The notes under the pieces were generated by a model. The model saw only the letters and a program-made list of their open reading frames with translations. It was not told where the DNA came from and ran no database searches. The translations under genes were made by a program, and so were the position numbers. From Desulfobacterales bacterium (GTDB lineage Bacteria > Desulfobacterota > Desulfobacteria > Desulfobacterales > UBA11574), in contig JAQYVT010000021.1 in assembly GCA_030145345.1 (NCBI GenBank), positions 1 to 35,534 of the forward strand: 35,534 bases of DNA. Direction: 5' to 3'. This document shows positions 2 to 33,013 of the stretch, piece by piece. Each line of letters starts with the position of its first letter. The stretch's first letter is position 1.

Positions 2-976
2 ATCGGCCAGGTATCTGAGACAGAAGCAACGGTTTTGATTCGCGGAGAATCGGGAACCGGGAAAGAGTTGGTGGCGCGGGCCATTTATCAAAACAGCACT
101 CGGGCCGACAGACCTTTTTGGGTCATCAACTGCGGGGCCATTCCTGAAACCCTTTTGGAAAGGGAGCTGTTTGGATATGAAAAAGGCGCCTTCACCGGAG
201 CAACCCACCGCCGCATAGGAAAGATCGAGCAGGCAAACGGCGGAACCGTATTTTTGGATAAAATCGGCCATATGCCGCTGAGCATTCAGGCCAAGGTTTT
301 GCGCGTGCTTCAAGAAAAGAGTGTTGAGCGATTAGGGGGTAGAAGCGCCATCCCTGTAAATGTGAGAATTATTGCCGCCACCAATCGTGACCTTGAATCA
401 GCCATCGCTCAAGGCCGGTTTCGGGAAGACCTCTACTACCGTCTCAAGGGGGTCTCCATCTTTTTACCGCCCTTAAAGGAAAGACTCGAAGATATCCCGG
501 CACTGACAGACTTTTTCCTTGCGCGATATTCACGGGAAGCGAGCGTCGAAAATCTGGGAATCACTCCAAAGGCAAAAACTTTTCTTGCAACAAATCTCTG
601 GAAGGGAAATGTGCGCGAACTGCTCGACACCCTACAAAAGGCCCTGATTTTTAACCGCGGCGCGCCTATTTCCAAAGAAGACATTTTACAGGCGATCAGT
701 GACAGGAATACGGGCAATACAATGGAGTTAGAAAAAGGAGAAGAGACCATTCAACAATGGGTGCGTCAGTCCCTGAATTCGCATTCAAATTCAAATCTAT
801 TTGCTAACTGTTTGGACCACTTTGCAGGTATCATCATCAGGGAAGCGCTCAACATAACCGGAGGTAATCGGTCACAAGCGGCAAAACGCCTCGGCATTTC
901 CAGGCCGTCCTTATATTCTAAAATCGAAAAGTATGGTCTCAAAATCAAAACTTCAGTTAAAGAAGACCCATCATAG
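2..976 (+). CDS. Sigma-54-dependent transcriptional activator, 5' end cut off by the window
   Basis: This is the AAA+ and DNA-binding part of a bacterial enhancer-binding protein that remodels sigma-54 RNA polymerase. The reading frame is open from base 2, so the true start and any sensory domain lie outside the window; the first in-frame TTG at 35 is not a credible start. In order one sees Walker A (GESGTGKE), the sigma-54 contact loop GAFTGA, a Walker B region, sensor I (AATNRD), the arginine-finger segment [11 protein letters not shown] and a C-terminal Fis-type helix-turn-helix ([19 protein letters not shown]). Oddly, the Walker B sequence reads FLDKIG instead of the usual FLDEIG: codon 260-262 is AAA (Lys) where family members carry the catalytic Glu. 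ATP hydrolysis may be impaired. Its target is unknown; the neighbouring sigma-54 promoter of the acyl-CoA synthetase is a natural candidate. Confidence 0.93.
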
Positions 977-3745: not shown

Positions 3746-4184
3746 TAGTAGGGTAGAACAGCGCCGGTTAGATATTTTAGGAAAGGATAAAAAACGACAA
3801 ATTGTACCGGACTCGACTACAATGACCCTAGGTTGATCAATCGGTTTCACAAGCAATTTTTTCTGAATTCACAGGCGCTTTATCTTTGAACCGCTATAGC
3901 TCGTCCAGTTGAATTGCGCTTTGCGCGCCCTTCGGGGATTCAACAGCGCAAGCGCATTTCCCACAAGCTTGTTCAAGCGAGGCGCAAATCCCGCTGTTCG
4001 GGATCGGAGCAAAACGGAGACCGTTGCAACGGGACGAGCAAAGTAAAAATTTGAAAAAATTCCTTACCGGCGGAGATTTCCTGCAATTGCGTTGAACGCG
4101 TTGGAATCCGGCACTGTGAGGCTTCAGAGAGCCTCAATAAGAAGTAGATGGCCCAATATAAGAATGTGTTGTCTGCCATTCCCC
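3746..4184. other. Intergenic region with small hairpins
   Basis: No gene is supported. It holds short inverted repeats: ATCCCG/CGGGAT (3988-3993 and 3999-4004) and GAGGCT/AGCCTC (4118-4123 and 4130-4135). Neither is followed by a T run, so they are weak terminator candidates for the synthetase gene. ORFs on both strands here lack ribosome-binding sites. Confidence 0.4.
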
Positions 4185-4321
4185 TTTACATTTTGTAAAA
4201 AATTCCGACACCCATTTTTTCCGACCCCCAGCGGCAATTCCATCCAATTGCATAAAATATCCTTATTTATCGGAGAGTTATTTCAAATCATAGGCAAAGA
4301 GTTTCTTGGCATAGCTTTTGC
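4185..4321 (+). promoter_or_regulatory. Sigma-54 promoter module A (dyad, IHF-like site, -24/-12) for uspA
   Basis: Dyad TTTACA-TTT-TGTAAA at 4185-4199 (centre 4192), followed by AAAATTCCGACACC as in modules B-D. IHF-like site TATCGGAGAGTTA at 4268-4280 (two mismatches to WATCAANNNNTTR). Sigma-54 element TTGGCAT...TTTTGCG with GG at 4308-4309 and GC at 4320-4321. Dyad centre to GG is 116 nt; IHF start to GG is 40 nt. The predicted transcript start near 4333 precedes the uspA start at 4384 by about 50 nt. Confidence 0.85.
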
Positions 4322-8875: not shown

Positions 8876-8891
8876 GACAAACCCAATCCAT

Positions 8892-9028
8892 TTTACATTG
8901 TGTAAAAAATTCCGACACCAATTCCTTCCTCCCCATGGCGATAAGCTCATGTAGTCTCAGAAAATATTCCGACTTATCAAACGGTTATTTGTGTCGTCTT
9001 TAAAACAGATGCTTGGCATGTCTTTTGC
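8892..9028 (+). promoter_or_regulatory. Sigma-54 promoter module B for the small ORF and formate/nitrite channel operon
   Basis: Dyad TTTACA-TTG-TGTAAA at 8892-8906 (centre 8899) with the conserved tail AAATTCCGACACC. A perfect IHF consensus TATCAAACGGTTA lies at 8975-8987. Sigma-54 element TTGGCAT...TTTTGCG has GG at 9015-9016 and GC at 9027-9028. Dyad to GG is 116 nt and IHF to GG 40 nt, identical to module A. The predicted transcript start near 9040 lies about 43 nt before the 59-aa gene. Confidence 0.9.
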
Positions 9029-11286: not shown

Positions 11287-12720
11287 CTATTCAATGAAGT
11301 GTTCAAGTGTCGGCGGCGGGTCGATACACCCCATGACCGGTTTCCATTCGCATTGCGCGTTCAATTCCACGCCCTCTTGAATGACCGAAATCGGCCGGTC
11401 CACGGAGACGACCACGACGATGAGATTGACATTTTCAGCGGTGAACCGCAATGCTGAGTTGAACCGCGCGCCCCGGGCCCGATCCTCACCCAGGATGGCG
11501 TGACCGTCCAGAAGACAGGCAAACCCGTGAAGGTTCAGATCCGTCCCGATATGCAGGGCTCCGTCGAGCTTTGCCAGGGACTCCGAGAGCTTTAGGAAGC
11601 GCTCTTGTCTGAGATCCAGGGCTTGCTCTGATTTCTGTCCTGCAATCTTGATGGGCGTGTCGTTAAGATCGATAATGAGCGTGCAGCCGTACTTTTCTCT
11701 TTCGGCCGTATGCACAATTCGCGTGATGATTTTAAAAAGTTCATGCCCGGTGGCAAAATCCAGATTCGATCCGAGCAAGGCTTCTTCCACTTCCACCAAC
11801 TTGGCCTGTCGGGTCGTCGAATGAAAGCTGCCGTCTGCAAAACTACATACCAGATCTCCGTTTATCCTCAAAAAGCCGTATTCACCTCTGAAATCGGCAA
11901 CGATGCGAAACGTCTTCTCGGCGTTGGCGGCAATTCCGACAATGGTTTTACCGTCAGAGATCAGTTTGCGCGCCGAGTTCTCAACACTTTGCAGGAGCTT
12001 ACGCACATGCTTGAAATTATTTAGGTTCGGCTGTTCCAAAAGGGGAAACCGGGCTAGAAATTCCATTTCTGCAACGGCTTTCGGTTCGACAAACGTCAGC
12101 TCACCCAAAGGCCAGGCCTTTTCCTCCCGGGTCCTGGAAATACCGAGGACGGCGTCCAGAACAGGATATACCCGTATCTGCGTATCCCAGCCCAGCAAGA
12201 CGTTCATTCGGTCAATAATATAATCCCGCACCGCATGGGTGGCGTATTCCCGAAGTACGTTCCCGGAAGTTTCGGTGTATAAGGGATCTTCCGTGGCAAA
12301 ATCATGGGAAAGGAGCCAGACGGCCTGTTCCAGCCAGCATTGAGTGGGCCCGATGGAACACATGTCGGGGTGATGCTCCGTAAACCACATCTGGTAGAAA
12401 ATCGAACGCGATCGACCGCCGTGGGAGATCAGTCCCGCCAGTTGAAGGTTTTTTTCGGCGTGGATGTGTCCGGAGTGCATCTTTTTCAGGACCTCTTCCG
12501 CAACATCCTTGCGCCATTGATTCGATTGAAGGTAGAGTTCTTTTAATATGGGTTCATGTCCCTTTAGGAGATGCTGTGGATCGTAGACGCGAATCGGGTC
12601 TTCGGGATTGATGGCATAGATGAGCGCCGCGCGACTCGACCCAGAAAAATGGGTAAGACCGTCCCGAAGCCCATCAAGGGTATGAAAAAGGCACAAGTTT
12701 CTGAAAGATTCCGGCGTCAT
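11287..12720 (-). CDS. Protein with a degenerate diadenylate-cyclase-like (DisA_N) domain
   Basis: The 477-aa protein has a long N-terminal region without a recognised domain and a C-terminal DAC-like fold over about the last 170 residues. Matching blocks are KLDGALHIG (the DGA motif of diadenylate cyclases), RARGARFNSALRF (aligned with GTRHRAA) and VNLIVVVVSVDRPISVIQEG. The second motif lacks the His-Arg of the catalytic Arg-His-Arg signature (here Arg-Phe-Asn), so c-di-AMP synthesis is doubtful; a nucleotide-sensing or altered enzyme is an alternative. Start ATG 12720 has GAAGGAGC upstream. It is convergent with the second Usp gene and has no sigma-54 promoter that I can see. Domain assignment rests on motif reading. 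Confidence 0.7.
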   Translation of the reverse strand: MTPESFRNLCLFHTLDGLRDGLTHFSGSSRAALIYAINPEDPIRVYDPQHLLKGHEPILKELYLQSNQWRKDVAEEVLKKMHSGHIHAEKNLQLAGLISHGGRSRSIFYQMWFTEHHPDMCSIGPTQCWLEQAVWLLSHDFATEDPLYTETSGNVLREYATHAVRDYIIDRMNVLLGWDTQIRVYPVLDAVLGISRTREEKAWPLGELTFVEPKAVAEMEFLARFPLLEQPNLNNFKHVRKLLQSVENSARKLISDGKTIVGIAANAEKTFRIVADFRGEYGFLRINGDLVCSFADGSFHSTTRQAKLVEVEEALLGSNLDFATGHELFKIITRIVHTAEREKYGCTLIIDLNDTPIKIAGQKSEQALDLRQERFLKLSESLAKLDGALHIGTDLNLHGFACLLDGHAILGEDRARGARFNSALRFTAENVNLIVVVVSVDRPISVIQEGVELNAQCEWKPVMGCIDPPPTLEHFIE

Positions 12721-13878: not shown

Positions 13879-13965
13879 CATTAAGGATTGTTTGGGTAAA
13901 TGGCTTTGGCTTCACAGAATAAATCATTCAAAAAATGTTACATTCAAAGGAACGAGTATTTTGAC

Positions 13966-14102
13966 TTTACAATTTGTAAAAAATACTGACACCAATTCTT
14001 TCCCCCCCACAGAAAATCATTTGCCAAGTCTCAAAAAATAATCGGTTTTATCAAGGCGTTATTCCCCATTACTCCTAAATCCATTCTTGGCATATCTTTT
14101 GC
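13966..14102 (+). promoter_or_regulatory. Sigma-54 promoter module C for the tauE/safE operon
   Basis: Dyad TTTACA-ATT-TGTAAA at 13966-13980 (centre 13973) with tail AAATACTGACACC. A perfect IHF consensus TATCAAGGCGTTA lies at 14049-14061. TTGGCAT...TTTTGCG has GG at 14089-14090 and GC at 14101-14102. Spacings are again 116 and 40 nt. The predicted transcript start near 14114 lies 68 nt before the chosen start codon. Confidence 0.9.
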
Positions 14103-16182: not shown

Positions 16183-19100
16183 TTAAAAAATCGATTTCAG
16201 GATGCCGTCGATTTCGGCGTTTATCTGATCTTCGGTGGAATGCTTTAAGGTGATGGCCCTTCGCGGGCACCCGGAAACGCAGATGCCGCACCCGCGGCAT
16301 TTGGCGGGCTGTATCTCGGAAACGCCATCGGCGTTGATAAACGGCGCTTCAAAGGGACAGAACCGCACACACACCAGGCAGGCGGCACAGATTTCGGGAT
16401 TTACCTGTGCGACGGTGGCCGGAGTGGTCATGGTTTCTTGGCAGAGAATTTTTACGGCCTGCTGGGCGGCGCCTTTGGCCATGGCAACAGATTCCGAGAT
16501 GAACCTGGGGCTGTGGGCCAGCCCGGCCAGGTAAATGCCGGGGGAGGCAAATTCTACGGGCTGGAGCTTAACGTGGGCTTCCATGAAAAATCCTTCCTGC
16601 GTGCGGGGCAGCTTCAAAAGCCTTGCGACCTGTTCGCTTTCCACATGGGGCCGGATGCCGGTGCTCAAGATCACCAGATCGGGTTCAACCCGAAGATTTT
16701 TGTAGGTGCTCTGGTGGTAAAAGTCCACCAGCAGTTTATGGGCGGGATCTTTGTGCACCCGAGGTTCTTGCTCCGGAATAAACCGGAAAAACAGAACGCC
16801 CATTTTGCGGGCCTTGGCGTAGTAAAGTTCCTTGAACCCGAAGGTCCGCAAGTCCCGGTACAAGATGATGACCTGAACATCCGGGTTGAGTTCTTTGAGC
16901 AGGATGCTGTTTTTCACCGCAGCGCTGCAGCACACACGACTGCAAAAGGAAAAATCCGGATTGCGTGAGCCGATGCACTGGATCATCACCAGCTGCTGTA
17001 AACTTTTGGCCCAATTAGGGTCCTGTTTGATCCGGCGTGTCAGTTCAACCTGGGACAGAATCCTTTCATCGGACGAATAAAGGTGTTCGCGAGGCTCATA
17101 GGCCTGGCCGCCGGTTGCAACGATTACGGCCCCGTATGAGATTCCATGATTGCCCTCCAAAGTTTTCAGCGTTCCCTCAAACGCCCCCACATGCCCCTGG
17201 TGGGCAATGAGCCGGCTACCGAAATGAACCGTTATCTTCGGGTGGCGAAGGACTTTTTCTTCCATTTGCCGGACGAGCTTTTGGGGCGAATCTCCCTCCA
17301 GGGTTTCGAAAAGGTTGCGGGCAAACCCCCCGAGCCGGTCGTCTTTTTCCACCAGATGTACACAAAACCCCTGGTCCGCCAAGGTCAGCGCGGCTGCCAT
17401 CCCGGAAATTCCCCCGCCGATGACCAGCGCCTCGTGGACCACGGGGTGGGTGAAATCGTGTAAGATCTCCAGGCGAACTGCCCGGGAAACGCCGCCGCGG
17501 ATGAGCTGTATGGCTTTTAAGGTGGCTTTATCCGGCCCTGATCCATGGACCCAGGAACACTGGTTGCGGATATTGACCATTTCAAAAAGATAGGGATTCA
17601 GGCCCGCCTTTTGCAAGGTGTCCCGAAAAAGCGGCTCATGGGTTTTGGGCGAGCAGGCAGCCACTACCACGCGATTTAACCGGTGTTCCTGGATAAGATC
17701 GATCAGCGGTTGCTGAGTCTCGGCCGAACAGGTGAACATAAAATCTCTGGCAAACGTGACTTGGTCCATTTTTTGGACCTGTTCCATGACTTCGGGAATA
17801 CGGATCACGCCGGCGATGTTCGATCCGCAGTGACAGACGAATACGCCGACCCTGGGCTGATCTTCCACCGGTTTTTCAGCAACGATTTTTAAGGAAACGG
17901 TTTCGGCATGGCGCGCAGTCTCGATCAGGGCCGAGGCCTCGGCGGCCGCGGCGCTCCCCTGGATCACGGTTTCGGGAATGTCCTTGGGAGCTTCCATGCC
18001 GCCGCAGACAAAAACACCGGGCCGGGATGTGGATACCGGTTCATCGAAGTCAGCGGTGATAAACCCAAAGGGGTTGGAGACAATCCCCAGCCGCTGGACA
18101 AGATCCGAGCTGTCATGGGCCGGTTTGAAACCGCTGGAAAGAACCACCAGATCGTATTCTTCTTCAATCTTGCGGTTTTGGTGATGATCGAAGGTTTCGA
18201 TGATCAGGTTTTCATTTTCCGGGTTCAGGTACACCTGGGAAATCATGGACCGCCGGAACGTTACCCCGTGCTGGTGGCGCGCCCGGTCGATGTAATTGTC
18301 AAATTCCTTGCCATGGGCCCGGATGTCCATGAAATAGATGGTCGTTTCCGTATCCGGCTGGTGGCTTCGGGTCAGAACGGCCTGTTTGGCCGCGTACATG
18401 CAACAGACCGACGAACAAAACGGACGGTTTCGGGCGGCATCCCGGGACATGACGCACTGGATCCAGGCCACCGCCTTCGGCGGTTTATTGTCCGAGGGAC
18501 GCTGAAGATGACCGGCAAAAGGGCCCGTGGCCGAGAGCATGCGCTCGTATTGCAAAGACGTCACAACGTTTCGATACCGGCCGTAGCCAAATTCTCCCTC
18601 TTGGGGAGTCAGGGCCGGCTCTAAACCCGTGGAAAGGATAACCGCGCCTGCGTCCAGGGTAAGGGTTTCGGGTTTCTGATCAAATTCAATGGCCCCTGTA
18701 GGGCATATATCTTTGCACAGGCCGCACCGTTTTCGGGTCAGATAGAGGCAATGTTCGGCGTCCAAGGCATACTTTAGCGGCACCGCCTGGGGAAACGTGA
18801 GAAACGCAGCCTTGCGAACCCCCAGCTTTCCGTTGAACGGGTCGGGCACTTTCTTGGGACATTTTTGTGCGCACTGGCCGCAAGCGATGCACTTTTCCAT
18901 GTTGATATAACGGGGGCTTTTTTGGATCCGGGCGGTAAACCGCCCCGGTTCGCCCTTTAGATCCAGCAGGCGGCTTAAGGTGATGATTTCGATGTTGGGA
19001 TTTGCGGCCACCTGTACCAGTTTGGGGGAAAAAATGCAGGTGGAACAGTCGTTGGTGGGAAAGGTCTTGTCCAGGGCGGCCATGATTCCGCCCAGAGTGG

Positions 19101-19242
19101 GGCTTCGGTCAAGCAGGTAGACGAAAAATCCCGTGTCGGCGAGATCCATGGCACATTGTATGCCGCCGATCCCGCCGCCGACCACGATGACCTTCCCGGA
19201 GGGTCGGTCGTCCATGTTTTTTGTGTCGATTCGATGGTTCAA
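16183..19242 (-). CDS. hdrA: HdrA-like flavin and iron-sulfur protein with two HdrA modules
   Basis: The flavin subunit of heterodisulfide-reductase-type complexes, which can couple (bifurcate) electrons between FeS and disulfide or other acceptors in the cytoplasm. The 1019-aa protein has two modules. The first contains an FAD motif VGGGIGGIQCAMDLA (about residue 20), the cluster segment NDCSTCIFSPKL, ferredoxin cysteines CIACGQCAQKCP and CGLCKDICP, and IQCVMSRDAARNRPFCSSVCC. The second begins with the canonical HdrA N-terminal segment GVFVCHCGSNIAG (about 470), has a second FAD motif VIGGGISGMAAALTLA (about 615) and IQCIGSRNPDFSFCSRVCC, and ends with two ferredoxin clusters (CAACLVCVRFCP, CRGCGICVSGCP). 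The second lacks NDCSTC. Start ATG 19242 overlaps the hdrB stop by four bases (ATGA), showing translational coupling. Double HdrAs are known in this bacterial group. Confidence 0.93.
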   Translation of the reverse strand: MNHRIDTKNMDDRPSGKVIVVGGGIGGIQCAMDLADTGFFVYLLDRSPTLGGIMAALDKTFPTNDCSTCIFSPKLVQVAANPNIEIITLSRLLDLKGEPGRFTARIQKSPRYINMEKCIACGQCAQKCPKKVPDPFNGKLGVRKAAFLTFPQAVPLKYALDAEHCLYLTRKRCGLCKDICPTGAIEFDQKPETLTLDAGAVILSTGLEPALTPQEGEFGYGRYRNVVTSLQYERMLSATGPFAGHLQRPSDNKPPKAVAWIQCVMSRDAARNRPFCSSVCCMYAAKQAVLTRSHQPDTETTIYFMDIRAHGKEFDNYIDRARHQHGVTFRRSMISQVYLNPENENLIIETFDHHQNRKIEEEYDLVVLSSGFKPAHDSSDLVQRLGIVSNPFGFITADFDEPVSTSRPGVFVCGGMEAPKDIPETVIQGSAAAAEASALIETARHAETVSLKIVAEKPVEDQPRVGVFVCHCGSNIAGVIRIPEVMEQVQKMDQVTFARDFMFTCSAETQQPLIDLIQEHRLNRVVVAACSPKTHEPLFRDTLQKAGLNPYLFEMVNIRNQCSWVHGSGPDKATLKAIQLIRGGVSRAVRLEILHDFTHPVVHEALVIGGGISGMAAALTLADQGFCVHLVEKDDRLGGFARNLFETLEGDSPQKLVRQMEEKVLRHPKITVHFGSRLIAHQGHVGAFEGTLKTLEGNHGISYGAVIVATGGQAYEPREHLYSSDERILSQVELTRRIKQDPNWAKSLQQLVMIQCIGSRNPDFSFCSRVCCSAAVKNSILLKELNPDVQVIILYRDLRTFGFKELYYAKARKMGVLFFRFIPEQEPRVHKDPAHKLLVDFYHQSTYKNLRVEPDLVILSTGIRPHVESEQVARLLKLPRTQEGFFMEAHVKLQPVEFASPGIYLAGLAHSPRFISESVAMAKGAAQQAVKILCQETMTTPATVAQVNPEICAACLVCVRFCPFEAPFINADGVSEIQPAKCRGCGICVSGCPRRAITLKHSTEDQINAEIDGILKSIF

Positions 19243-20078
19243 CGCAACAATTCCTTTATCCGTAAAAGTGGAACCGGATCGGTGATATGCATTCTAAACC
19301 ATTTGCGGGAAGCTCTTCCGGGCTCGAAAGCCAGGCGCAGCAGCTCAGTGAAATAAAAAACCGGAATGGTCGACTCGGTCTCGTTTCGCTGGAGAATGTC
19401 CAGGTTGGCCTGACACAGCGGGCAGGAGGTCACAACGGCTTCCGCATTGGCCTGACGGGCTTTGTCAAGCAGCCGCGCCGTCAGAGACTCCTGGATATCC
19501 CTGCGGCCGATCCCGATGCTCGCGCCGCAGCACGTGGTTTTGTAAGACCAGTCCAGGGCCTTTGCGCCAACCGCTGCCACGATCCTGTCCAAGGTCTGGG
19601 GATTTTCGTAATCGGTATAGCCCGTGATGCGCGGCGGACGGACCATCTGGCATCCGTAGTAGCAGACCACTTTAAGGCCTTCCAGCGGCTTTCGAACCCG
19701 GGTCATGATTCGCTCGAGCATGTCGGGGTCGGCCAGAAAGCGGGTCATATCGTGCACCTCGATTTTTCCCGTGATCTTCCAGGGCACATCGAAGATTCTC
19801 TTTTGGATCATGATTTGGGATGCGCGCAACCGGTTGTAGCAATTGGCGCAGGGCGACACGATGTCCATGCCCATTTTCTCAGCCTGCGCAAGATTTCTGG
19901 CCGGAAGCGTCACAGCCATCAATTCGCTCAAACTGTGGGCCGCGGTGGCGCCGCAGCAGGACCAATCTTCGATTTCCACAAGTTCGATATCAAGATTCCG
20001 GAACACCGCCGTGATGGACTGGCTGTAATCATTTGCCATCCCCTCCAGGGAGCATCCGGGGTAAAATGCCAGCTTCAT
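19239..20078 (-). CDS. hdrB: HdrB, CCG-domain subunit of heterodisulfide reductase-like complex
   Basis: The 279-aa protein carries two CCG domains, which in HdrB bind the noncubane [4Fe-4S] pairs that cleave a disulfide. First set: Cys9, Cys41-Cys42-Gly, Cys77 and Cys80. Second set: Cys139, Cys143, Cys183-Cys184-Gly, Cys219 and Cys222. All positions are intact, so the catalytic clusters are likely functional. Gene order hdrC-hdrB-hdrA with one base between the hdrC stop and the hdrB ATG, and a four-base overlap with hdrA, indicates a coupled complex. The natural disulfide (for example a DsrC-type trisulfide or a thiol cofactor) cannot be named from sequence. Confidence 0.93.
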   Translation of the reverse strand: MKLAFYPGCSLEGMANDYSQSITAVFRNLDIELVEIEDWSCCGATAAHSLSELMAVTLPARNLAQAEKMGMDIVSPCANCYNRLRASQIMIQKRIFDVPWKITGKIEVHDMTRFLADPDMLERIMTRVRKPLEGLKVVCYYGCQMVRPPRITGYTDYENPQTLDRIVAAVGAKALDWSYKTTCCGASIGIGRRDIQESLTARLLDKARQANAEAVVTSCPLCQANLDILQRNETESTIPVFYFTELLRLAFEPGRASRKWFRMHITDPVPLLRIKELLR

Positions 20079-20079
20079 C

Positions 20080-20733
20080 TTAGTCCATCTCCCCTCGTTC
20101 CTGCCGGTAGAGTTTTCGAATCTCGCCCATGGCCTTGCACCGACGGGGAATCAGCTTCAGCTTTCCTTTTCGAAAGAGCCTAAAGCCCAGTGCCATCTCT
20201 TCCGTTAGGGTGCCTGTCTGTATTTTCTCTTTTAATACGATGGGTTTTAAGTGCAATGCCACCATGAGCCAGAATTCGTTGACCCGGCCGAAATACTGAA
20301 GCGATTCTAGAAAGGCCTGGTGAAACAGGGCCACTTGTTTTTCCCTGGGTGCCACGGACGAATGGGCGGCCATATTTCGCAAATGAATGATGGTTTCTGC
20401 CACCTGGACCTCGTTGGGACAAAAGGTGGTGCACATTTCGCAGGACAGACAGACCCAGATGGTGGAAGATTTCAAAAGCTTCTCTCGCCAGCCGAACTGA
20501 ATGTACCGGATCACCTGGTGCGGTTTAACATCCATGTAATGGCTGACCGGACAGGCGTTGGTGCACCGATGGCACTGATAGCAGGCGGAGATGTTCGCGG
20601 CGGTCTCGCCCTCTATCCGCTTTAAAAAGTGGTTTCCCCGGTCCCCGATAATCTCTCTTGCTTTATCCTCCGTGTCCTGATTCAAGAGGAGGATTTCATC
20701 GGCTTCGTCAAAAATTTTTGCCATGGCAATCAC
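20080..20733 (-). CDS. hdrC: HdrC, ferredoxin-like subunit of heterodisulfide reductase-like complex
   Basis: A 217-aa protein with two [4Fe-4S] motifs: Cys51-x2-Cys54-x2-Cys57-x3-Cys61 and Cys95-x2-Cys98-x2-Cys101-x3-Cys105, as in HdrC, which relays electrons between HdrA and HdrB. Start GTG 20733 is preferred: AAGGA lies at correct spacing, whereas the in-frame ATG at 20724 would be 14 bases away. It has no TM segment and is cytosolic. It opens the hdrCBA block and follows the double Usp gene by 59 bases. Confidence 0.9.
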   Translation of the reverse strand: MIAMAKIFDEADEILLLNQDTEDKAREIIGDRGNHFLKRIEGETAANISACYQCHRCTNACPVSHYMDVKPHQVIRYIQFGWREKLLKSSTIWVCLSCEMCTTFCPNEVQVAETIIHLRNMAAHSSVAPREKQVALFHQAFLESLQYFGRVNEFWLMVALHLKPIVLKEKIQTGTLTEEMALGFRLFRKGKLKLIPRRCKAMGEIRKLYRQERGEMD

Positions 20734-20792: not shown

Positions 20793-21710
20793 CTACTTTC
20801 CGGCGTATTGGTTTACACTGACGACCGGGCAGTTGGCCCGACCGATCACCTGTTCAAGGATATTTGCATGTGGTGCGTCACCGGTTTCCGTCTTTTTGGC
20901 ATGGTACGCCAGAACGATCAAATCCGCATGCTTTTCGCCGGCATATTTCACAATTTCTACAGACGGGATGCCTTTCCAGACTTTAACAGAGTATGGTTTA
21001 AAGTCCCCCATCCGGGAAACATATTTACTCCTGATCTGCTGGTCTGCTTTGCGAATTTTCCCTTCAATATATTCGGGTGTATCGAATTTGTTCGTCTGGA
21101 TACCCCGGATGTCTAACACATGAAACAAATGAAATTCACAGTCAAGTTCCTGTTCCTGAACGAGCTGGAAAGCAAATGCGAAGGCTGCATCATCTGCAAT
21201 GGAGAAATCAGCTGCGAATACAACATTCGAAAACTGTCCCCCAACTGAGGCTGCAGATCGGTTGACCACTAAAACCGGACAGCGAGCGGCCTTTGCCACC
21301 CGCAGGTACGTCGAACCTGTCATCGTTTTTTTATAAAATGAAATATCAGGATCTCCTGTGCTGCCGCCCATAATGATAAGATCTGGATCAATATGACGCG
21401 CAAACCGTAATATTTCTCGGTGAGGAAAACCAATGGTGACTTCGAACGAATATTCTATTGTATTTTTAAGCACTTGATTACAATAGTCACTGATTTCTTC
21501 TTTCACAAAATCAACATAATTTTCATCGAGTATTAACTCATCGCCCGTAATTAAATCGATGACAACTTGACTGAAGCCGTGGGTGGGTACCCCAAAAACA
21601 TGAAAAACATAAATATGGGCATTGTATCTTTGCGCAATGTCAAATGCCATCCGGGCGGCACCATCACAGGCGTCTCTGGCGCATGTGGCAAAAAGAATTT
21701 TATCGAACAT
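20793..21710 (-). CDS. Universal stress protein with two tandem Usp domains
   Basis: A 305-aa protein. Domain 1 starts MFDKILFATCARDACDG and ends near TGSTYLRVAKAARCPVLVVNR; domain 2 starts FSNVVFAADFSIADDA and ends VIGRANCPVVSVNQ. The glycine loops are only partly conserved (IIMGGSTGDPDIS in domain 1, YHAKKTETGDAPH in domain 2), so ATP binding is uncertain. GAGGTGAT precedes the ATG. It lies within the redox operon, 50 bases after hmcF and 59 before hdrC, hinting at a role in regulating or stabilising the membrane-to-cytosol redox link. Confidence 0.88.
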   Translation of the reverse strand: MFDKILFATCARDACDGAARMAFDIAQRYNAHIYVFHVFGVPTHGFSQVVIDLITGDELILDENYVDFVKEEISDYCNQVLKNTIEYSFEVTIGFPHREILRFARHIDPDLIIMGGSTGDPDISFYKKTMTGSTYLRVAKAARCPVLVVNRSAASVGGQFSNVVFAADFSIADDAAFAFAFQLVQEQELDCEFHLFHVLDIRGIQTNKFDTPEYIEGKIRKADQQIRSKYVSRMGDFKPYSVKVWKGIPSVEIVKYAGEKHADLIVLAYHAKKTETGDAPHANILEQVIGRANCPVVSVNQYAGK

Positions 21711-21760: not shown

Positions 21761-23149
21761 TTATTCATTGAGCTTAAGATGCTCAGGAATTTCCACCATA
21801 TCGATCAGTAGCGACTTTAAAAAAGACCAGCGGATACCGATACGGTATTCTTTTTCAATGTCCCGGATGGCATCCCAACAGTTGTGACAGGGTGCAAGTA
21901 CGAGGGTCGCACCGGTTTTAATAATCTGGTCACGTTTTGTGATGAGGGCTTTGTTTCGTTGTTCACGAAAGATCCCGATGCCGTTTAATCCGCCGCCGCC
22001 GCCGCAACAGTAATTATGGTCACGGTTGGGTGCCATATCAACGAAATAACCCGGCTCCACGATATAACCGATGATTTCCCGGGTGATTTCTTTGAGCCCA
22101 TGATTTCGGACATAATTACATGAATCCTGAAGGGTGATGCGTTCTTTGATTCGTTTTGACGGGTCAATTTTTAATTTTCCGGTTCTGAGTGCTTCGGCAA
22201 CCCATTCGACATAATGTAACGATTCAACGGGAGGTTTGCCGTCCTTTCGACCTGCCCAGTAAGGCCCCTCAACAACGGTTGCGCGATGGGCGTGGCCACA
22301 TTCCGTTCCCACCATGCGTTTGGGCCTCAATCGTTCCATGGCAGCGTAAACATGTTCAACCTGCATTTTACACGCTTCCCAGTCACCGGCAAACATGGCC
22401 AAGCTGGTCTGTTCCCAACCGCTGCTGGGAATGGTCCAATTTTCACCTGCCAAATGAAAAAGAATGGCCGCTTCCGCCAAAGCTTCCGGGTAATGCTTCA
22501 CTTCCCGGGCATTTACAGTATACATGATGTCCGCGCCGACGTTGTCAATCGGTATGGACAGACCGGGATAGTCTTCTTGGTATTCTTCGGCCATCCACTT
22601 AAATGTCTCGACAAAATCCTCGTCTGTGACATCCATCTGAGCATGGTAGAGGCGGTGCATGCCGGCGCCGATTTTCAGTTCCCAGGGGACAAACCCTTGT
22701 TGATATAACAAGCCGCGGAGATAACTGAACATCACGCCCATATCAATGCCATGGGGGCAATATAGACCACATCGATTACAACAGGTACATTTTGCCCAGG
22801 CCGTTTCCATCGCCATCCACATGAATTTGTTATCGACGTTTCCTTTTCGACGGATGATTTCGCCGAGACTTGATTGAATTTTGTACGCCGGCACCTGTTT
22901 GGGATCTCGATTGTGTATGCGATAAAAAAAACAGCTGTCCGCGCACAAACCGCAGTGGGCACAGATCTCCAGCCAGGTACGCATACGGGAATGGAATGTT
23001 TTATTGATCGTATCCCACAGAAGACGGCTGTCAACCTCTATTGATTTCATCTCTTCATAGTATTTTTTCCCCCTTGTATCAGAAAGCAGGGTTTTCAATG
23101 CTTCTTGGGTTTGAATCGGATTTTTATTGCAAAGCGTTCCTTCGGGCAT
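21761..23149 (-). CDS. hmcF: HmcF-like cytosolic iron-sulfur protein with CCG domain
   Basis: The 462-aa protein is the cytoplasmic subunit expected in Hmc/Tmc-type complexes. Two [4Fe-4S] motifs are intact: Cys63-x2-Cys66-x2-Cys69-x3-Cys73 and Cys121-x2-Cys124-x2-Cys127-x3-Cys131. Near residue 340 and onward comes an HdrD-like catalytic set: [21 protein letters not shown] and APCHNCWD. It may therefore reduce or oxidise a disulfide or pass electrons to a soluble partner such as DsrC. No TM segment. It follows hmcE by 88 bases with TAGGAGA upstream of ATG. DsrK and TmcB are related alternatives; complete Hmc gene order favours HmcF. Confidence 0.88.
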
Positions 23150-23237: not shown

Positions 23238-23915
23238 TTACCAAGTCAGTCCTTTACCTTTCATGCCGCCCCGTTTAATTCCGAAATCCATTCCCAATTG
23301 TGCCCGGGACATAAAGAACAGGAGTATATGAGACAGTTTGGTAAACGGAACGGCAATAAGCAGCATCTCACCGCTGATAATATGAGCCAACAGCCAGAAA
23401 GAATCATTACCCAATTCATACCGGCAAATTAGTCCGGTAATAAAAGGTGCGACTGAAAGAAAAAGGACAACATAATCGTGTTTGGTTGTGAGAATCCGAA
23501 CCTCTGGCAATGCAATGCGCCTTAGCAATAGAAAAACAGCACTGATAATCACTCCCCAACTTAAAATATCTGCCAAGTTTTGATTCAATAACGCAAAAGA
23601 AAGGCCCAATTTTTCTTGGAGAATCATTTGATGCGCCTCCAGAAAAAGGGGGATGCAAATGACACCGATATGAAATGTGTAAAAGAGCAACGCCATAAAC
23701 GGCTGCGCACGCCAGCTGCGGGTTCCAAACGGCAGAATCCAGAAAACAATCGATCTGACCGCACCCTTTATTCCGGCTTTCGGGTGAGCGGTATACGCCA
23801 CGCGATCAAGCTGCCAGTTCAATCCTTTGACATACCATACCCCCCGGACAAGCAGGCCGATCAGGCAGATACCGATGGACAGGCATAACCCGGGGCCGGT
23901 TAGAAAGTTATACAT
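23238..23915 (-). CDS. hmcE: HmcE-like cytochrome b membrane subunit (NarI/DsrM type)
   Basis: A 225-aa membrane protein with about five TM helices. Histidines suited as heme b ligands occur in FYTFHIGVICIPLFLEAHQ and in LLAHIISGEMLLIAVPFTKLSH (both in TM helices), as in NarI, DsrM and HmcE. It would move electrons across the membrane between periplasmic cytochrome/ferredoxin subunits and HmcF, possibly linked to menaquinone. AAGGAAG precedes the ATG. It lies 68 bases after the tiny hmcD gene. Confidence 0.88.
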   Translation of the reverse strand: MYNFLTGPGLCLSIGICLIGLLVRGVWYVKGLNWQLDRVAYTAHPKAGIKGAVRSIVFWILPFGTRSWRAQPFMALLFYTFHIGVICIPLFLEAHQMILQEKLGLSFALLNQNLADILSWGVIISAVFLLLRRIALPEVRILTTKHDYVVLFLSVAPFITGLICRYELGNDSFWLLAHIISGEMLLIAVPFTKLSHILLFFMSRAQLGMDFGIKRGGMKGKGLTW

Positions 23916-24295: not shown

Positions 24296-26437
24296 TTAAC
24301 GTTCATATCGATAATCCGGGTGTTCGTATAAAATCGGCATCCGGGCAACGCAAAACCGGTATGCAATAATACCGATGGTAACAATGAAAATGCTGGTGAC
24401 AACCTCCATCCAGCTTGGAAAATATCTTTGATCTGCGGGCAGGTTCCAATTAAAGGCAATCAGGCAGATATTTAATCGATTTAAAATAATTCCCAGCAGG
24501 GTCCATAGCGCCGCCCAACGAATAAGACGGATGTTGCGTTCCCTTTCGCCGACGGCAAAGAAGAATGCCGGCAGTGCAACAAATCCTATCAATTCAAGAA
24601 GATACCAAATTCCCCAGCGGCTGATCAGCTCCCCCCAATCATTGTCGGCGGCCAAGCCGATCAGCTGAATCATGACATAACCGGCCATAACCCATGCAGC
24701 GGCTTTTGCAAAACCGAAGGTTATGTGAGGACCTGCGGACAGGTGGGCCGGGTCCATTTTGGGTCGCAGAAACCGCTGGGCCAACGTGCTTTCAAAAATA
24801 ACCATGGACATCCCGGCAAACATACTGGAAATTAAGAAAGATACGGGTAAATAAGTGGAATGCCATAGCGGATGGAGCTTGAACGGCGCAATCAAAAAAA
24901 GGCCGCCGAGGGTCAGGTTGTGTAATATAAAAAGTATAATACCTAAAACGGTCAGGGCCAGCGTCAACTCAATGACGGCATTGCGGGCTTTTCTCCATCC
25001 GAGGCATTCAAAGGCTGCCGGACTGCATTTGATCGCCAGAACGAAAACAGACAGAAACATACACACAGCCAACATAAAGAGTAACGAGGAGGTCCCTTGT
25101 GAAAGAAATATTGAATACGGGAGGCGCCACGGCCGTCCCACATCATAACACAGAGCGAGGACGACCAGAGCGTATCCCAGAAATGCCGTCAAGACGGCCG
25201 GTCGAACCGCTGAATGACATCTCTTTAAGCCGAAAAGATAACAAGCGGCGGATGTCATATACCCGCCGGCGGCCAGGGTAACGCCGCATAACAGGTCAAA
25301 CCCGATCCAGAGCCCCCAGGGATTGTTGTCATCAAGACGGGTTACGGCGCCGAGCCCTCCGGTAAACCTGAGAACCGTGAGAATCATCCCGACCAGCACG
25401 ATGATTCCAGCAGTTAGATTAAAGGGTGAGAATACCGATTGGAGATTTTTGAGCCGCGGGAGCGACGTCTGTGCGCCTGAACTTTTTCTCGCCGGCGTTG
25501 CAGCGTCTTTCACTGCTTTTTTTTTGTCTCGTTTTGCGCCAGCTTGCGTCTCCTCGTTTACGATCCGGTCTTTACGTTTTGAGATGGCATAAATCCCTGT
25601 GAGAAAAACGAACCCTGTAACCACAACAATGGGAAATGAAGCCAGTAGCCCGGAAGTCCGTTGCGCTGCCGAGATATCGCCGAGATCTTGGCGCATCCCG
25701 ATATCTGCAAACCCTACGTTAGAGATATATAACCAGTTGCAGCCGCCCATTTCATGTTCTCCGTAGATATGATCCACATAGCGGCCCGGATAATCGTGAA
25801 TTCTTTGCCGGGCGATTTTGATCAAATCTTCGCGGGTGCCAAACGCCAGGGCTTCTTTGGGGCAGATTTCGACACATTTAGGCATCAGCCCTTTTTGAAT
25901 TCTCGGCTGACAAAGGGTGCATTTCATCACCTTGGGGGTGATGGGATCACTGTACTCGTAAGCCGGGATATTGAACGGACAAGCGATCATACAATAGCGG
26001 CAGCCGACACACAGAGACGGGTCATAGACAACGGCACCGGTCTCGGATTTTTTAAGCGCTTTGACAAAACATGCCGATACGCAGGCCGGTTCCAGGCAAT
26101 GATTGCATTGCTTTTTCACAAAAACCGGCAATGCTGTTGCCGGCGGTAAAAACCGATTGACCACGGTATATACGCCGGCATCCGGCCGCCGCTCGAGGTT
26201 CAGAACGTTCAGGTCGTCAAAGGGGCGCTCCGGAGGGGGAAGTTCGTTGACCTGGTTGCAGGCGGCTTCGCATTTGCGGCATCCGATGCAGCGGGATATG
26301 TCGTGCAGAACGCCCAGACTCCCGGGGTGCCCGCTGAAATGCCGGGTAGCGGCCGCCTGGGCGTGGCGACTCAAAAGGAAATTGTTTCCCATGGCCGTGC
26401 CCGTCCCGGCCAAAAATTGTCTGCGGGTAACCCCCAT
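24296..26437 (-). CDS. Fused HmcB-HmcC: periplasmic ferredoxin subunit joined to NrfD-type membrane subunit
   Basis: A 713-aa protein. The N-terminus has a Tat-type signal (TRRQFLAGTGTAMG). Four ferredoxin clusters follow (CIGCRKCEAAC, CNHCLEPACVSAC, CVGCRYCMIACP, CTLCQ with CVEICP), as in DMSO-reductase-type electron-transfer subunits, then a TM helix (SFPIVVVTGFVFLTGIYAIS near 285). A Lys-rich linker (KRKDRIVNEETQAGAKRDKK) leads into an NrfD-like domain with about eight to ten TM helices (about residues 345-700). In classical Hmc complexes these are two genes. The linker would be cytoplasmic. Start ATG has GAGGAAG upstream and lies 15 bases after hmcA. It should pass electrons from the cytochrome to the membrane quinone site. 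Confidence 0.9.
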   Translation of the reverse strand: MGVTRRQFLAGTGTAMGNNFLLSRHAQAAATRHFSGHPGSLGVLHDISRCIGCRKCEAACNQVNELPPPERPFDDLNVLNLERRPDAGVYTVVNRFLPPATALPVFVKKQCNHCLEPACVSACFVKALKKSETGAVVYDPSLCVGCRYCMIACPFNIPAYEYSDPITPKVMKCTLCQPRIQKGLMPKCVEICPKEALAFGTREDLIKIARQRIHDYPGRYVDHIYGEHEMGGCNWLYISNVGFADIGMRQDLGDISAAQRTSGLLASFPIVVVTGFVFLTGIYAISKRKDRIVNEETQAGAKRDKKKAVKDAATPARKSSGAQTSLPRLKNLQSVFSPFNLTAGIIVLVGMILTVLRFTGGLGAVTRLDDNNPWGLWIGFDLLCGVTLAAGGYMTSAACYLFGLKRCHSAVRPAVLTAFLGYALVVLALCYDVGRPWRLPYSIFLSQGTSSLLFMLAVCMFLSVFVLAIKCSPAAFECLGWRKARNAVIELTLALTVLGIILFILHNLTLGGLFLIAPFKLHPLWHSTYLPVSFLISSMFAGMSMVIFESTLAQRFLRPKMDPAHLSAGPHITFGFAKAAAWVMAGYVMIQLIGLAADNDWGELISRWGIWYLLELIGFVALPAFFFAVGERERNIRLIRWAALWTLLGIILNRLNICLIAFNWNLPADQRYFPSWMEVVTSIFIVTIGIIAYRFCVARMPILYEHPDYRYER

Positions 26438-26452
26438 AATTCTTCCTCTATT

Positions 26453-28111
26453 TCAGAATAACGCCGTTTGTTGAACCTTTACCGTTTTCTTTGGGTGACA
26501 TGCCTTGCAATCCGTGGACAGCGGTTTTTCAATGCCCATGCGCTGGTGGCAGGTCATACATTGTCCATGATAAGCGCCCAATAACCCGGGTTTTCCGTTT
26601 TTTTGGGTTTGAAGTGACATGCCGTGACATGCGGCACATTTTGGGTATGCGCCGGCCGACGGACCCTTATGGTGGCATCCCGAACATATCGACGTTGTTT
26701 TTCTGTGAAAGTGCTGTGCCAACCTGCTTTTCTGGGTTCGTTCGATCAGGGCCTGAACAATTTTCCGGTGTGGAAACTGCACGCCGTCATATTGATCCGT
26801 CATGATATCTATGGTTACCTTATCCGGTATCTGCTCATCCAATATCGTCGGCCCGTTGGCTGAAGGGGCCTTGATCGCGGTTGCCGCAACGTTGGCCCGG
26901 GTCGCATTGCTTTCGGGCAGCGGTCTAAGCGCTTCCCTGGCAACCGTATGACAAGGATTGCATTTAAATTTATCTAATTGTCCGGTTTTCATTTGGGCGT
27001 GGCAGCCGGCGCAGTCTGAAGATTTCATGGATTCCCGGTGACAGCCCAGACAGCTTCTGGATGTATTTGAAGAATGCATGGCCTGTTCAAGTCTGATAAA
27101 TTTACTTTTTTCGGAACCGGTTCTAGTATGGCATGCCGTGCAAGTGTCCATGGATTCATGGTGACACAAACGACAATTTTCAACCTGTTTTTCATGGGAG
27201 AGATGATCGAATGCCACCGGTTCGACAAACTGAAGCGACGGCTTCCCTGATTCAATCGCATCCTTTAACCAGGTCGACAAAAGCACAACATCCGGTTGAT
27301 TCCGCTTTATTCGTGGGATTTCCTTGAGTTTCACAATTTTTGACTGCTTTGCCAACGCGTGACATGCTGCGCAGTTTGTCGGTCCGGCCTTTTTATTCTC
27401 TAGGTTGAGTGCGATATGACAGTTGAGGCAGTCTTCATGCGCAACTGTTTTAAACGATCGGACTTCCTCGGTCTTTTCCTGTTTATGGCAGTAGCGGCAT
27501 GTCCCTTCCTTGCCTTTGGTATAAACCGTCTTATTGAGCGCTTTATCGTATTCATGATGACATGCACTGCAATTCTCTTCTTTTTCGCCGTCCACGGATC
27601 GGATCCGGTCGGCAAGTACATGACGATAATGAAGGGATTTATCCATGCCAAAGGGTTGGGACGCGTCTATATATGGCGGGTTTTGAGCGTGGCACATGCG
27701 GCATTCGCCGGTAAGGGGTCCTGATTTTAATCCCTGATCTCGTCTATCCGTATGGCATCCGATACACGTGTGATGATATAATTCCTTATCGTTTTTGAAT
27801 CCATCATCTTTGAGCCGCTTTAATTTGAAAACAAAAACATTTTCCTTTTTAAGATGGCACGATTCGCACGACTTGTTTTCAATCGCTTCGGTATGTCTGT
27901 CATGAGGGAAGAACACCTCGGGCATTTGATAGCCTTGGGGGGGGCTTGACAGCCGGATTCTGATGAGATCAGATCTTTCTTGATTCTGGGATGTGTTGCC
28001 ATAAAGCGGGCAGAACAGAATGATTGTGATTATAAGAAAAAATAGAATTCCATTTCGGAGCCTTTGCAGAGGAACTTTCTCCAAAATGCTCGACATAAAC
28101 AAAATATTCAT
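26453..28111 (-). CDS. hmcA: HmcA-like 16-heme cytochrome c
   Basis: The 552-aa exported protein contains sixteen CxxCH heme motifs (CESCH, CIGCH, CRMCH, CSACH, CRYCH, CLNCH, CAACH, CRLCH, CTACH, CLGCH, CAGCH, CNPCH, CSGCH, CAACH, CMTCH, CKACH), the same number as the 16-heme HmcA. An N-terminal hydrophobic segment (GILFFLIITIILFCPLYG) acts as signal or anchor, putting the hemes in the periplasm. Length is near that of known HmcA. No clear ribosome-binding site precedes ATG 28111 or the in-frame ATG 28096. It would take electrons from periplasmic hydrogenase or formate dehydrogenase through small cytochrome c3 and pass them to HmcBC. Confidence 0.93.
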   Translation of the reverse strand: MNILFMSSILEKVPLQRLRNGILFFLIITIILFCPLYGNTSQNQERSDLIRIRLSSPPQGYQMPEVFFPHDRHTEAIENKSCESCHLKKENVFVFKLKRLKDDGFKNDKELYHHTCIGCHTDRRDQGLKSGPLTGECRMCHAQNPPYIDASQPFGMDKSLHYRHVLADRIRSVDGEKEENCSACHHEYDKALNKTVYTKGKEGTCRYCHKQEKTEEVRSFKTVAHEDCLNCHIALNLENKKAGPTNCAACHALAKQSKIVKLKEIPRIKRNQPDVVLLSTWLKDAIESGKPSLQFVEPVAFDHLSHEKQVENCRLCHHESMDTCTACHTRTGSEKSKFIRLEQAMHSSNTSRSCLGCHRESMKSSDCAGCHAQMKTGQLDKFKCNPCHTVAREALRPLPESNATRANVAATAIKAPSANGPTILDEQIPDKVTIDIMTDQYDGVQFPHRKIVQALIERTQKSRLAQHFHRKTTSICSGCHHKGPSAGAYPKCAACHGMSLQTQKNGKPGLLGAYHGQCMTCHQRMGIEKPLSTDCKACHPKKTVKVQQTALF

Positions 28112-28385: not shown

Positions 28386-29048
28386 CTATCTTAGACGCAA
28401 TCCGGCAATCTTAACGGCACCCCGGTGGTATCCATCAGGGAATAACTGCTCGAGATCTGCCAATCTAATCTGGTTCTCGTCACAGGTGTCATAAACGGTG
28501 GGGATCTCTTTGTTCTTTTTATAACTTTCGCGAAGAAAATTAATAATTTCCCAGTGCTTTTCCGTCAGCTTTCCACCGGGTATTTTCATTTCATATGCTC
28601 TGTGGATCGCATAATGCTCATCCCATTCATCAGGATCCATTAAAAATCCCCGTACATCCACGGTATAAGACTTATTACTGGCAACTGCGTGAAGGGCCTC
28701 GGCCGCCTCGGCAGTATATAATTCTTGTTGTTTATGACTGTCGCGGAAGCTAATACCTGCCAGCTTACAGGCACCTCTCTGATATCCGGTGGGGAAAAGT
28801 TTCTTTAACTGTTTTCGCCGCAGATTATTCTCTCTACAGGCTTCAAAGATGGTAGGACATATGCCCGTTTCTTTAAATTTATGCCGGATAGAATAAATTA
28901 CATCCCAGTGCTCTCTGGTGGGACCCTTCTCGATCCGAAGTTGCGGCGCCATTCCTTCCACAAAATTTTCATCCCATTGTTCAGGTTCCGCCAAGAACCC
29001 GATGGAATCTAAAGAATAACTTTTTCCTTTGTGTGTCAAAATGTTCAT
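28386..29048 (-). CDS. Tandem DsrC/TusE-family protein (two domains in one chain)
   Basis: A 220-aa protein made of two DsrC-like domains. Domain 1 (1-105) has THKGKSYSLDSIGFL, REHWDVIYSIRHKFK and FPTGYQRGACKLAG; domain 2 (125-220) has SNKSYTVDVRGFL, EKHWEIINFLRESYKKN and FPDGYHRGAVKIAG. Cys94 in GACKLAG matches the CysB position of DsrC; in domain 2 this residue is Val212. Neither half has the C-terminal Cys (CysA), the chain ending LRLR. ATG 29048 is chosen because GGAG lies eight bases upstream; the GTG at 29054 is too close. DsrC carries sulfur trisulfides to DsrC-reducing complexes; with one Cys this protein could bind persulfide but not form the usual intramolecular bond. It leads the Hmc-Hdr unit. 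Confidence 0.85.
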   Translation of the reverse strand: MNILTHKGKSYSLDSIGFLAEPEQWDENFVEGMAPQLRIEKGPTREHWDVIYSIRHKFKETGICPTIFEACRENNLRRKQLKKLFPTGYQRGACKLAGISFRDSHKQQELYTAEAAEALHAVASNKSYTVDVRGFLMDPDEWDEHYAIHRAYEMKIPGGKLTEKHWEIINFLRESYKKNKEIPTVYDTCDENQIRLADLEQLFPDGYHRGAVKIAGLRLR

Positions 29049-29169
29049 GTTCACTTCTCCTTTCGAAATTTTTCGCTCCCGAGTTTTTCCGTGTCGGGAT
29101 TGTTGAGCAGTCAGAGTTTAGAAAAACAATTAAAAAATAATCATGAATTTAATGTGGTAATATGGAAGA

Positions 29170-29307
29170 GCAATTAATATGCCAATCGGAGCAGCAGGAA
29201 TCTGATCATATAATCATATGATATTATTTATTAAATTTTATGATGTGATAGGAAAGAAGTGCTTGTCTTAAGAAGAATGATCGTCAGATATTTTTACAGA
29301 CTGTAAA
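29170..29307 (-). promoter_or_regulatory. Sigma-54 promoter module E for the dsrC-hmc-hdr gene set
   Basis: Dyad TTTACA-GAC-TGTAAA at 29293-29307 (centre 29300). On the minus strand an IHF-like site TATCATATGATTA (one mismatch) runs 29223 to 29211. Sigma-54 element TTGGCAT...TTGCTC has GG at 29183-29182 and GC at 29171-29170. Dyad to GG is 117 nt and IHF to GG 40 nt. Transcription would start near 29158, about 110 nt before the dsrC-like start codon. Confidence 0.82.
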
Positions 29308-29399
29308 AAAAGTAAAAATTCGATGTGAATATTCTTAAGAGAAGACCCATACTGCCAGAGGAATTTTTCAGTTTTAAGCGGTTGGCTTTCTTCTGTGAT

Positions 29400-29459
29400 T
29401 AATAAAATACCCGTGGTGACCCCTTCCATGAGGGAGAAAGGGCCGGCTCAACCACGGGT
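29400..29459 (-). terminator. Terminator of the rhodanese gene
   Basis: ACCCGTGGT/ACCACGGGT (29409-29417 and 29451-29459) form a 9-bp stem enclosing a smaller CCCT/AGGG hairpin. On the minus strand, 73 bases after the rhodanese stop, the stem is followed by ATTTTATTAA, consistent with an intrinsic terminator that separates this gene from module E. Confidence 0.65.
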
Positions 29460-29532
29460 GTTTCTTGGATTAGCGTGCAACGAGTTCCCTAAATTGTAAC
29501 CATCGAAGGGTTCATGGTTGCCCCAATTTTCT

Positions 29533-30482: not shown

Positions 30483-30533
30483 GGATTGATGTCAGGCAAT
30501 TTTACACTGTGTAAAATTGCCTGACATCAATCC
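30483..30533. repeat. 51-bp perfect palindrome containing the shared TTTACA-N3-TGTAAA dyad
   Basis: Arms of 24 bp (30483-30506 and 30510-30533) are exact complements around a 3-nt spacer CTG. The core is the same dyad as in modules A-E, and the flanks repeat the downstream half-motif (TTGCCTGACATCA; compare TTCTGACATC in module D) on both sides, so the site looks like a doubled version of the box. In the rhodanese leader RNA it would form a very stable hairpin. A GATCAA IHF-like core starts at 30584, 76 nt from the centre on the plus side, but no intact sigma-54 element lies at 30624. Confidence 0.9.
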
Positions 30534-32790: not shown

Positions 32791-32877
32791 ACTTTTGACG
32801 GCTCTCCAAAGGCGAGTTCAAATCCATTCAATATTCATTATTTTATCGTATAAATCTTAAAAATAACCCGAACACAT

Positions 32878-33013
32878 TTTACAACCTGTAAAAAATTCTG
32901 ACATCTTTTGCCCTACAAATTTATGTGTCAGACGCTCCTTTTTCCAAATAAGATAGTCTTATCTAAAGGTTACATAAATCACCCGGTGTTTTGAATCCTG
33001 GCACGATTGTCGC
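32878..33013 (+). promoter_or_regulatory. Sigma-54 promoter module D for the methyltransferase operon
   Basis: Dyad TTTACA-ACC-TGTAAA at 32878-32892 (centre 32885) with tail AAATTCTGACATC. IHF-like site TATCTAAAGGTTA (one mismatch) at 32960-32972. Sigma-54 element CTGGCACG...GTCGCAG has GG at 33000-33001 and GC at 33012-33013. Dyad to GG is 115 nt and IHF to GG 40 nt. The leader to the start codon at 33245 is about 220 nt. Confidence 0.82.

Follow-up and report, generated by a model that had tools for sequence, protein, structure and literature searches.

Tandem DsrC gene and its neighbors

The window analyzed here, i.e., the whole stretch of 35,534 nucleotides from a Desulfobacterales bacterium (GenBank assembly GCA_030145345.1, contig JAQYVT010000021.1; this genome is labelled G000), encodes a protein with two DsrC-type domains, hereafter tandem DsrC. 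Behind its gene come, in this order, hmcA, hmcBC, hmcE, hmcF, a gene for a universal stress protein (Usp), hdrC, hdrB, and hdrA (Table 1). The preliminary description of the locus had placed the gene at positions 28386 to 29048; the position stood, but the gene lies on the minus strand, the forward-strand translation of this interval being riddled with stops. The start chosen by the open reading frame lister was a GTG located 6 bases before the ATG at 29048. A sigma-54 promoter precedes tandem dsrC, and no such promoter was detected in the interval up to hmcA, which agrees with the earlier view that tandem dsrC heads an Hmc-Hdr unit, and we infer that tandem dsrC and the hmc-hdr genes are expressed as one transcript. 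A rhodanese gene, a YeeE-type transporter gene, and a TauE exporter gene are also located near the tandem gene. HmcB and HmcC gave one continuous match in several other genomes too, and separate matches in others. Elsewhere in the window (11287 to 12720), a protein combining DACND and DACNH sensor domains with a DAC (DisA nucleotide-binding) domain is encoded, and its relative in another genome (G006, L167) is preceded by an upstream activating site (UAS) and a sigma-54 promoter. Scanning the window for Rfam families and tRNA genes yielded no matches.

Table 1. Coordinates of the features of the tandem dsrC locus in the window
Feature	Position	Strand	Basis or remark
Sigma-54 activator, AAA+, Fis-type helix-turn-helix, cut by contig end; candidate regulator	35..976	+	
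hdrA-like gene	16183..19242	-	
hdrB-like gene, two CCG domains	19239..20078	-	
hdrC-like gene	20080..20733	-	
Universal stress protein gene, two Usp domains	20793..21710	-	
hmcF, DsrK-like, CCG domain	21761..23149	-	
hmcE	23238..23915	-	
hmcB-hmcC, fused in one ORF	24296..26437	-	
hmcA, 16-heme cytochrome, following tandem dsrC in the unit	26453..28111	-	
Tandem dsrC coding sequence from ATG 29048 to the stop, 220 aa	28386..29048	-	ORF list and translation, Pfam, NCBIfam
Domain 2, aa 126-220 plus stop; DsrC fold, no CysB, no C-terminal Cys arm	28386..28673	-	
Val212 codon at the domain 2 CysB site	28413..28415	-	Alignment; V/I/L/N in 41/41
Cys189 codon	28482..28484	-	Alignment; Cys in 41/41 tandem domain 2
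Linker, aa 101-125	28674..28748	-	Low-confidence predicted helix 102-123; conserved among three closest relatives
Domain 1, aa 1-100, DsrC fold, with CysB	28749..29048	-	Pfam, AlphaFold2
Cys94 codon (CysB equivalent)	28767..28769	-	Alignment; Cys in 40/40 relatives covering the site
Upstream region of tandem dsrC	29049..29532	-	Alignment; 86% identical to G022
Sigma-54 -24/-12 promoter of tandem dsrC, TGGCATATTAATTGCT	29169..29184	-	Sequence match
Palindromic upstream activating site, TTTTTACAGACTGTAAAAA	29291..29309	.	Sequence match

Two-domain architecture and cysteine pattern

The fusion of two DsrC/TusE domains recognized in the preliminary description was confirmed by profile searches and structure prediction. 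The protein contains two stretches matching the DsrC family PF04358 (E value 2.2e-40; 137.9 bits against a cut-off of 24.9, which each half exceeded alone) and two matches to TIGR03342, and only DsrC proteins were retrieved below an E value of 1e-7 in a search of solved structures. Each half was modeled as a DsrC fold by AlphaFold2 (mean pLDDT 86.5), with confident cores, a poorly placed linker, and an uncertain mutual placement of the halves (pTM 0.49). The best solved match of the model was a single DsrC (3or2_C; Foldseek target TM 0.89).

Domain 1 carries the motif FPTGYQRGAC(94)KLAG and thus keeps the CysB of DsrC, the residue that closes a disulfide or trisulfide. As had been described, the equivalent residue in domain 2 is valine and no C-terminal cysteine follows: the motif reads FPDGYHRGAV(212)KIAGLRLR-stop, with neither arm nor CysA. 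The designation as a single-Cys protein is right for the DsrC motifs, in which C94 is a strictly conserved CysB, but not for the whole chain, which also contains C64, C71, and C189. An ordinary DsrC with the KPTGCV ending is encoded on another contig of the same genome (contig 101).

Distribution and origin of the tandem DsrC family

A profile built from three close tandem proteins was scanned against 390 genomes of the class, and full-length or partial tandem matches were found in 24 of them; a second profile, based on 30 members and scanned against other classes of the phylum, added six more genomes. Altogether, 41 tandem genes were recovered from 30 genomes across Desulfobacterota, with two to four copies in some genomes, which are sometimes adjacent (G354, G036, G241, G440, and G660). 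A single scan for occurrence outside the phylum, run with short sequence patterns of the window protein, returned one near relative. These 41 independent genes rule out a frame or assembly artefact, the weakness that the preliminary description had itself raised. A phage or plasmid origin was also rejected, as no phage or plasmid record matched and no match in viral contigs was confirmed.

The conservation of Cys94, which had been proposed for checking, proved complete: the domain 1 CysB is cysteine in all 40 proteins covering the site, and the domain 2 equivalent is cysteine in none of the 41, being V, I, L, or N. A CysA-arm ending was absent after both domains in all 41 tandem proteins; two f3 proteins have a cysteine elsewhere, in a longer and different tail. 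Since the C189 position is also cysteine in 14 of the 21 single-domain comparison sequences, this residue is probably structural, and the invariant Cys189 is unlikely to replace CysA. C64 of domain 1 is tandem specific (present in 35/40; alanine in canonical DsrC); it may be a partner of C94, although it was lost in 5 genes.

In a tree of all halves together with single-domain DsrC, three groups were resolved, namely, the N-halves (support 0.73), the C-halves (0.99), and the single-domain proteins at 1.00 (0.998); the one misplaced "N-half" is the sole remaining domain of a gene truncated at a contig end. Because N-halves and C-halves fall in separate clades, the family is most simply traced to one old duplication and fusion that took place before it spread. 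The window protein shares 85% and 81% identity with its relatives in G022 and G003, respectively, and among these three closest proteins the dN/dS ratio was 0.13 to 0.24, with purifying selection strongest in the linker and domain 2. Among the 24 genomes of the class with tandem DsrC, 22 gave a further DsrC-type match, so tandem DsrC is an extra protein. Taken at the level of sequence, the two-domain DsrC family is old, genuine, and separate from canonical DsrC. No description of tandem DsrC was found in a search of the open literature, and novelty is provisional. Single DsrC-like proteins of 113 aa (L024, L027, and L028 in G019, G021, and G023), in which Trp occupies the CysB site and CysA is missing, end in the charged tail KPTPEVLAKIKHNV.

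Comparison with known DsrC-type proteins

Tandem DsrC resembles DsrC (PF04358, TIGR03342) in sequence, in the fold of both halves (TM 0.89), and in the GACK.AG CysB motif of domain 1, and differs from it in having two domains per chain and no C-terminal arm, with CysB lost from domain 2. The penultimate CysA of canonical DsrC is missing, the residues before the motif are GY.R in both halves rather than GP.K, and the tandem proteins occupy a separate clade, do not group with canonical DsrC, and have a separate genomic setting, the canonical protein coexisting in G000. TusE belongs to the same superfamily and keeps CysA, usually without CysB, which is the reverse of the tandem pattern; against the TusE model PRK11508, the window protein scored 59.9 bits, well below the cut-off of 191. 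RspA-type DsrC-like proteins have a single DsrC domain without the CysA arm and are thought to be regulatory; compared by description only, they share with tandem DsrC the lack of CysA and differ in not being a fusion. Thus, as far as sequence features tell, tandem DsrC is a member of the DsrC superfamily that is neither canonical DsrC nor TusE.

Sigma-54 promoter and palindromic upstream activating site

The promoter of the tandem gene, TGGCAT-N5-TTGCT, matches the -24/-12 pattern (GG-N10-GC) at 10 of 11 positions, and 125 bp upstream of it lies the UAS, a perfect 9+1+9 palindrome (TTTTTACAGTCTGTAAAAA, i.e., TTTTTACAG-T-CTGTAAAAA). This promoter and UAS pair precedes the tandem gene in G000, G022, and G003, and the upstream region is more conserved between G000 and G022 (86% identity) than synonymous sites and the next intergenic region (only about 75%). 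In G003, tandem dsrC and hmc are located on separate contigs, and both, including the unlinked hmcA, carry the palindrome and an 11/11 promoter. With both elements in place, tandem dsrC is predicted to be a sigma-54-dependent gene. Beside the promoter (29200 to 29230), there is a second inverted repeat, ATCATA-TGATTA-TATGAT, with a compensatory change in G022 (L031; ATCAGA..TCTGAT).

The palindrome recurs well beyond this gene. With one mismatch at most, it was found 9 times in G000, 7 times in G003, and 10 times in G022, compared with 0, 0, and 1 for the reversed-pattern control, and a sigma-54 promoter followed 100 to 130 bp downstream (mostly 121 to 126 bp) at 36 of 41 palindrome sites versus 2.2% of random positions. 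Seven genomes (G000, G003, G022, G006, G012, G015, and G016) contain the element 4 to 10 times with a fixed promoter spacing, and the apparent targets are mostly stress, signaling, and energy genes, including those for universal stress proteins, CstA, the FNT channel, TauE, cytidylate-kinase-like, CBS, cNMP-binding, and GAF proteins, ADP-forming acyl-CoA synthetase, and response regulators. The window alone has six copies of TTTTTACANNNTGTAAAAA with two mismatches at most (4183-4201, 8890-8908, 13964-13982, 29291-29309, 30499-30517, and 32876-32894; 0 expected), five of them with a sigma-54 promoter 123 to 125 bp downstream, and the genes behind these five pairs encode Usp, the FNT channel, TauE, tandem DsrC, and a methyltransferase-like protein.

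The UAS also precedes tandem genes or apparent operons in f5 and f13, and hence occurs in three families overall (10 sites with two mismatches at most in f5 and f13, against 0.6 expected; the number of mismatches is two at some of them, and G100, G057, and G036 show only a weak promoter match). It lies before a hydrogenase operon whose last gene is tandem dsrC in G181, and, in G108 and G189, in the intergenic region that the tandem gene has in common with Hox genes. Overall, the element covers hmcA, [NiFe] hydrogenase, and Hox operons. The UAS was not seen at tandem genes of f3, f14, f65, and other classes. A general link between Hmc and the UAS was rejected: among 16 other hmc loci, the start of hmcA was covered in 14, and neither UAS nor sigma-54 promoter preceded any of these 14 genes.

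These sites suggest that the palindrome TTTTTACANNNTGTAAAAA defines a sigma-54 regulon, of which no earlier description was found in the open literature. The control of electron-transfer genes by a UAS and a -24/-12 promoter is known from sigma-54 regulons of sulfate reducers (DVU3142/Ohc; PMC4641369), and the main text of that paper mentions neither Hmc nor hydrogenase nor DsrC and contains no TGTAAA string.

Genomic settings of tandem dsrC

The link of tandem DsrC to Hmc is lineage-specific. The gene order of the window recurs in a Desulfobacteraceae MAG (G022, L031), from the rhodanese gene through hmcBC, where the contig ends, and a rhodanese neighbor was observed in these two genomes only. 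HmcF was found in 207 of the 390 genomes of the class versus tandem DsrC in 24, and most Hmc genomes lack the tandem gene. Both occur in 16 genomes, and they stand side by side in only two of these (G000 and G022); thus, neither the conserved linkage nor the co-occurrence expected of a dedicated partner of Hmc was observed. The proposal that the protein is dedicated to HmcF or HdrB is accordingly not supported; other loci combine the tandem gene with hydrogenase, signaling, or unrelated genes. The regulatory link of tandem dsrC is stronger than its linkage to the Hmc genes.

Among these other loci, the tandem gene lies in or beside a group-3b-like hydrogenase operon in G181 and G220, with a formate-hydrogenlyase-like cluster including a formate-dehydrogenase-like enzyme in G036 and G354, with Hox-type genes in G108 and G189, and with HdrB- and HdrA-like genes in G177, the hydrogenase group names being assigned from subunit composition. 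A hydrogenase large subunit is encoded within 12 kb of 6 of the 29 tandem loci (0.35 expected), and these counts are not independent because all come from two families. Signaling genes accompany tandem dsrC in G100, G057, and G003 and at the third copy in G036, and some tandem genes adjoin unrelated genes. No common electron-transfer neighbor was seen at tandem genes of f3, f14, f65, and other classes. In G036, a fusion of a response-regulator receiver domain to a formate/nitrite transporter adjoins tandem dsrC (L084:6172-7467).

Possible roles of tandem DsrC

A regulatory or docking role is favored. The reading that we put forward, tentatively and at slightly less than even confidence, is that this DsrC paralogue with CysB only acts as a thiol-bearing, redox-responsive adaptor or sensor within a sigma-54 regulon around H2 and formate electron transfer. 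In this organism, its gene would open the hmc-hdr unit and be transcribed from a sigma-54 promoter belonging to the TTTTTACANNNTGTAAAAA regulon. Domain 1 would contribute the retained CysB thiol, and domain 2, without motif cysteines, would probably offer a further surface for docking. With the CysA arm missing from the two halves alike, neither a DsrC trisulfide nor DsrC-like sulfur carriage is expected, and DsrC-type trisulfide formation by the tandem protein is unlikely on this sequence evidence. As CysB closes the disulfide or trisulfide in DsrC, a CysB that stands alone could engage another thiol in trans: C94 might be joined reversibly, by a mixed disulfide or a persulfide, to a partner, either canonical DsrC or an iron-sulfur subunit of the CCG/HdrB/DsrK type (here HmcF or HdrB), and such pairing would couple H2- and formate-linked electron transfer to the redox state of the DsrC pool. 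We infer this C94 chemistry, the adaptor role, and the partners, the last being guessed from context. It is weakened by the possibility that CysB alone is kept for structural reasons and by the diversity of the tandem neighborhoods.

The main rival is that tandem DsrC is a transcription or signaling regulator, whose two DsrC folds, each containing a helix-turn-helix-like segment, bind DNA or another regulator and whose C94 senses redox state or sulfide. Histidine kinases, response regulators, GGDEF and cNMP-binding proteins, and sigma-54 activators are encoded beside the tandem gene in several genomes, the gene is divergent from the hydrogenase operon in G108 and G189 with a UAS region common to both, and a role of DsrC in regulating rdsr genes has been suggested (PMC4411801). 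Domain 1 also carries a more positive charge than canonical DsrC (median net charge, +1 versus -3), but the whole protein has a net charge of about 0, and the LexA similarity found by Foldseek (E value 0.4) is, like that to TetR, not significant. Moreover, tandem dsrC apparently shares an operon with genes of catalytic subunits in G181, G036, and the window, and no binding site specific to the protein was identified. We regard a regulator of this kind as rather unlikely.

The single-Cys carrier suggested in the preliminary description, in which a C94 persulfide would be handed to HmcF or HdrB, or to canonical DsrC in trans, is less probable still. The invariance of C94 and the rhodanese, YeeE-type transporter, and TauE exporter genes near the window gene are consistent with such a carrier or scaffold, but the rhodanese was observed in the window and G022 only, and CysA, which the tandem protein lacks, is the only cysteine at which Allochromatium vinosum DsrC was found to bind sulfur, CysB being irrelevant there (PMC3397948). 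CysB was found in organisms with DsrAB (PMC3397948). Least probable is a decoy or inhibitor that would occupy the DsrC site of DsrAB or DsrMK without an arm and so lower sulfate respiration under stress when the regulon is on; the retained fold, the lost arm, and the coregulation with stress-type genes (Usp, CBS, CstA, and FNT) would suit it, but a pure decoy would not need a strictly conserved CysB, and the GY.R residues before the motif depart from canonical DsrC in both halves.

Significance

DsrC has a central place in sulfate reduction, for which the electron exchange between the cytoplasmic sulfur pathway and Hmc or soluble hydrogenases remains to be explained. On the adaptor or sensor reading, one could go further and suppose, although this is doubtful, that a soluble, hitherto unrecognized thiol adaptor couples Hmc, group 3b and Hox hydrogenases, and formate-hydrogenlyase-like complexes to the DsrC/heterodisulfide pool of Desulfobacterota, on demand via the large TTTTTACANNNTGTAAAAA regulon. 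The tandem protein offers a specific testable protein, a residue (C94), and a promoter common with Hmc or hydrogenases. It also means that a DsrC match in a metagenome does not always denote a two-Cys partner of sulfite reductase.
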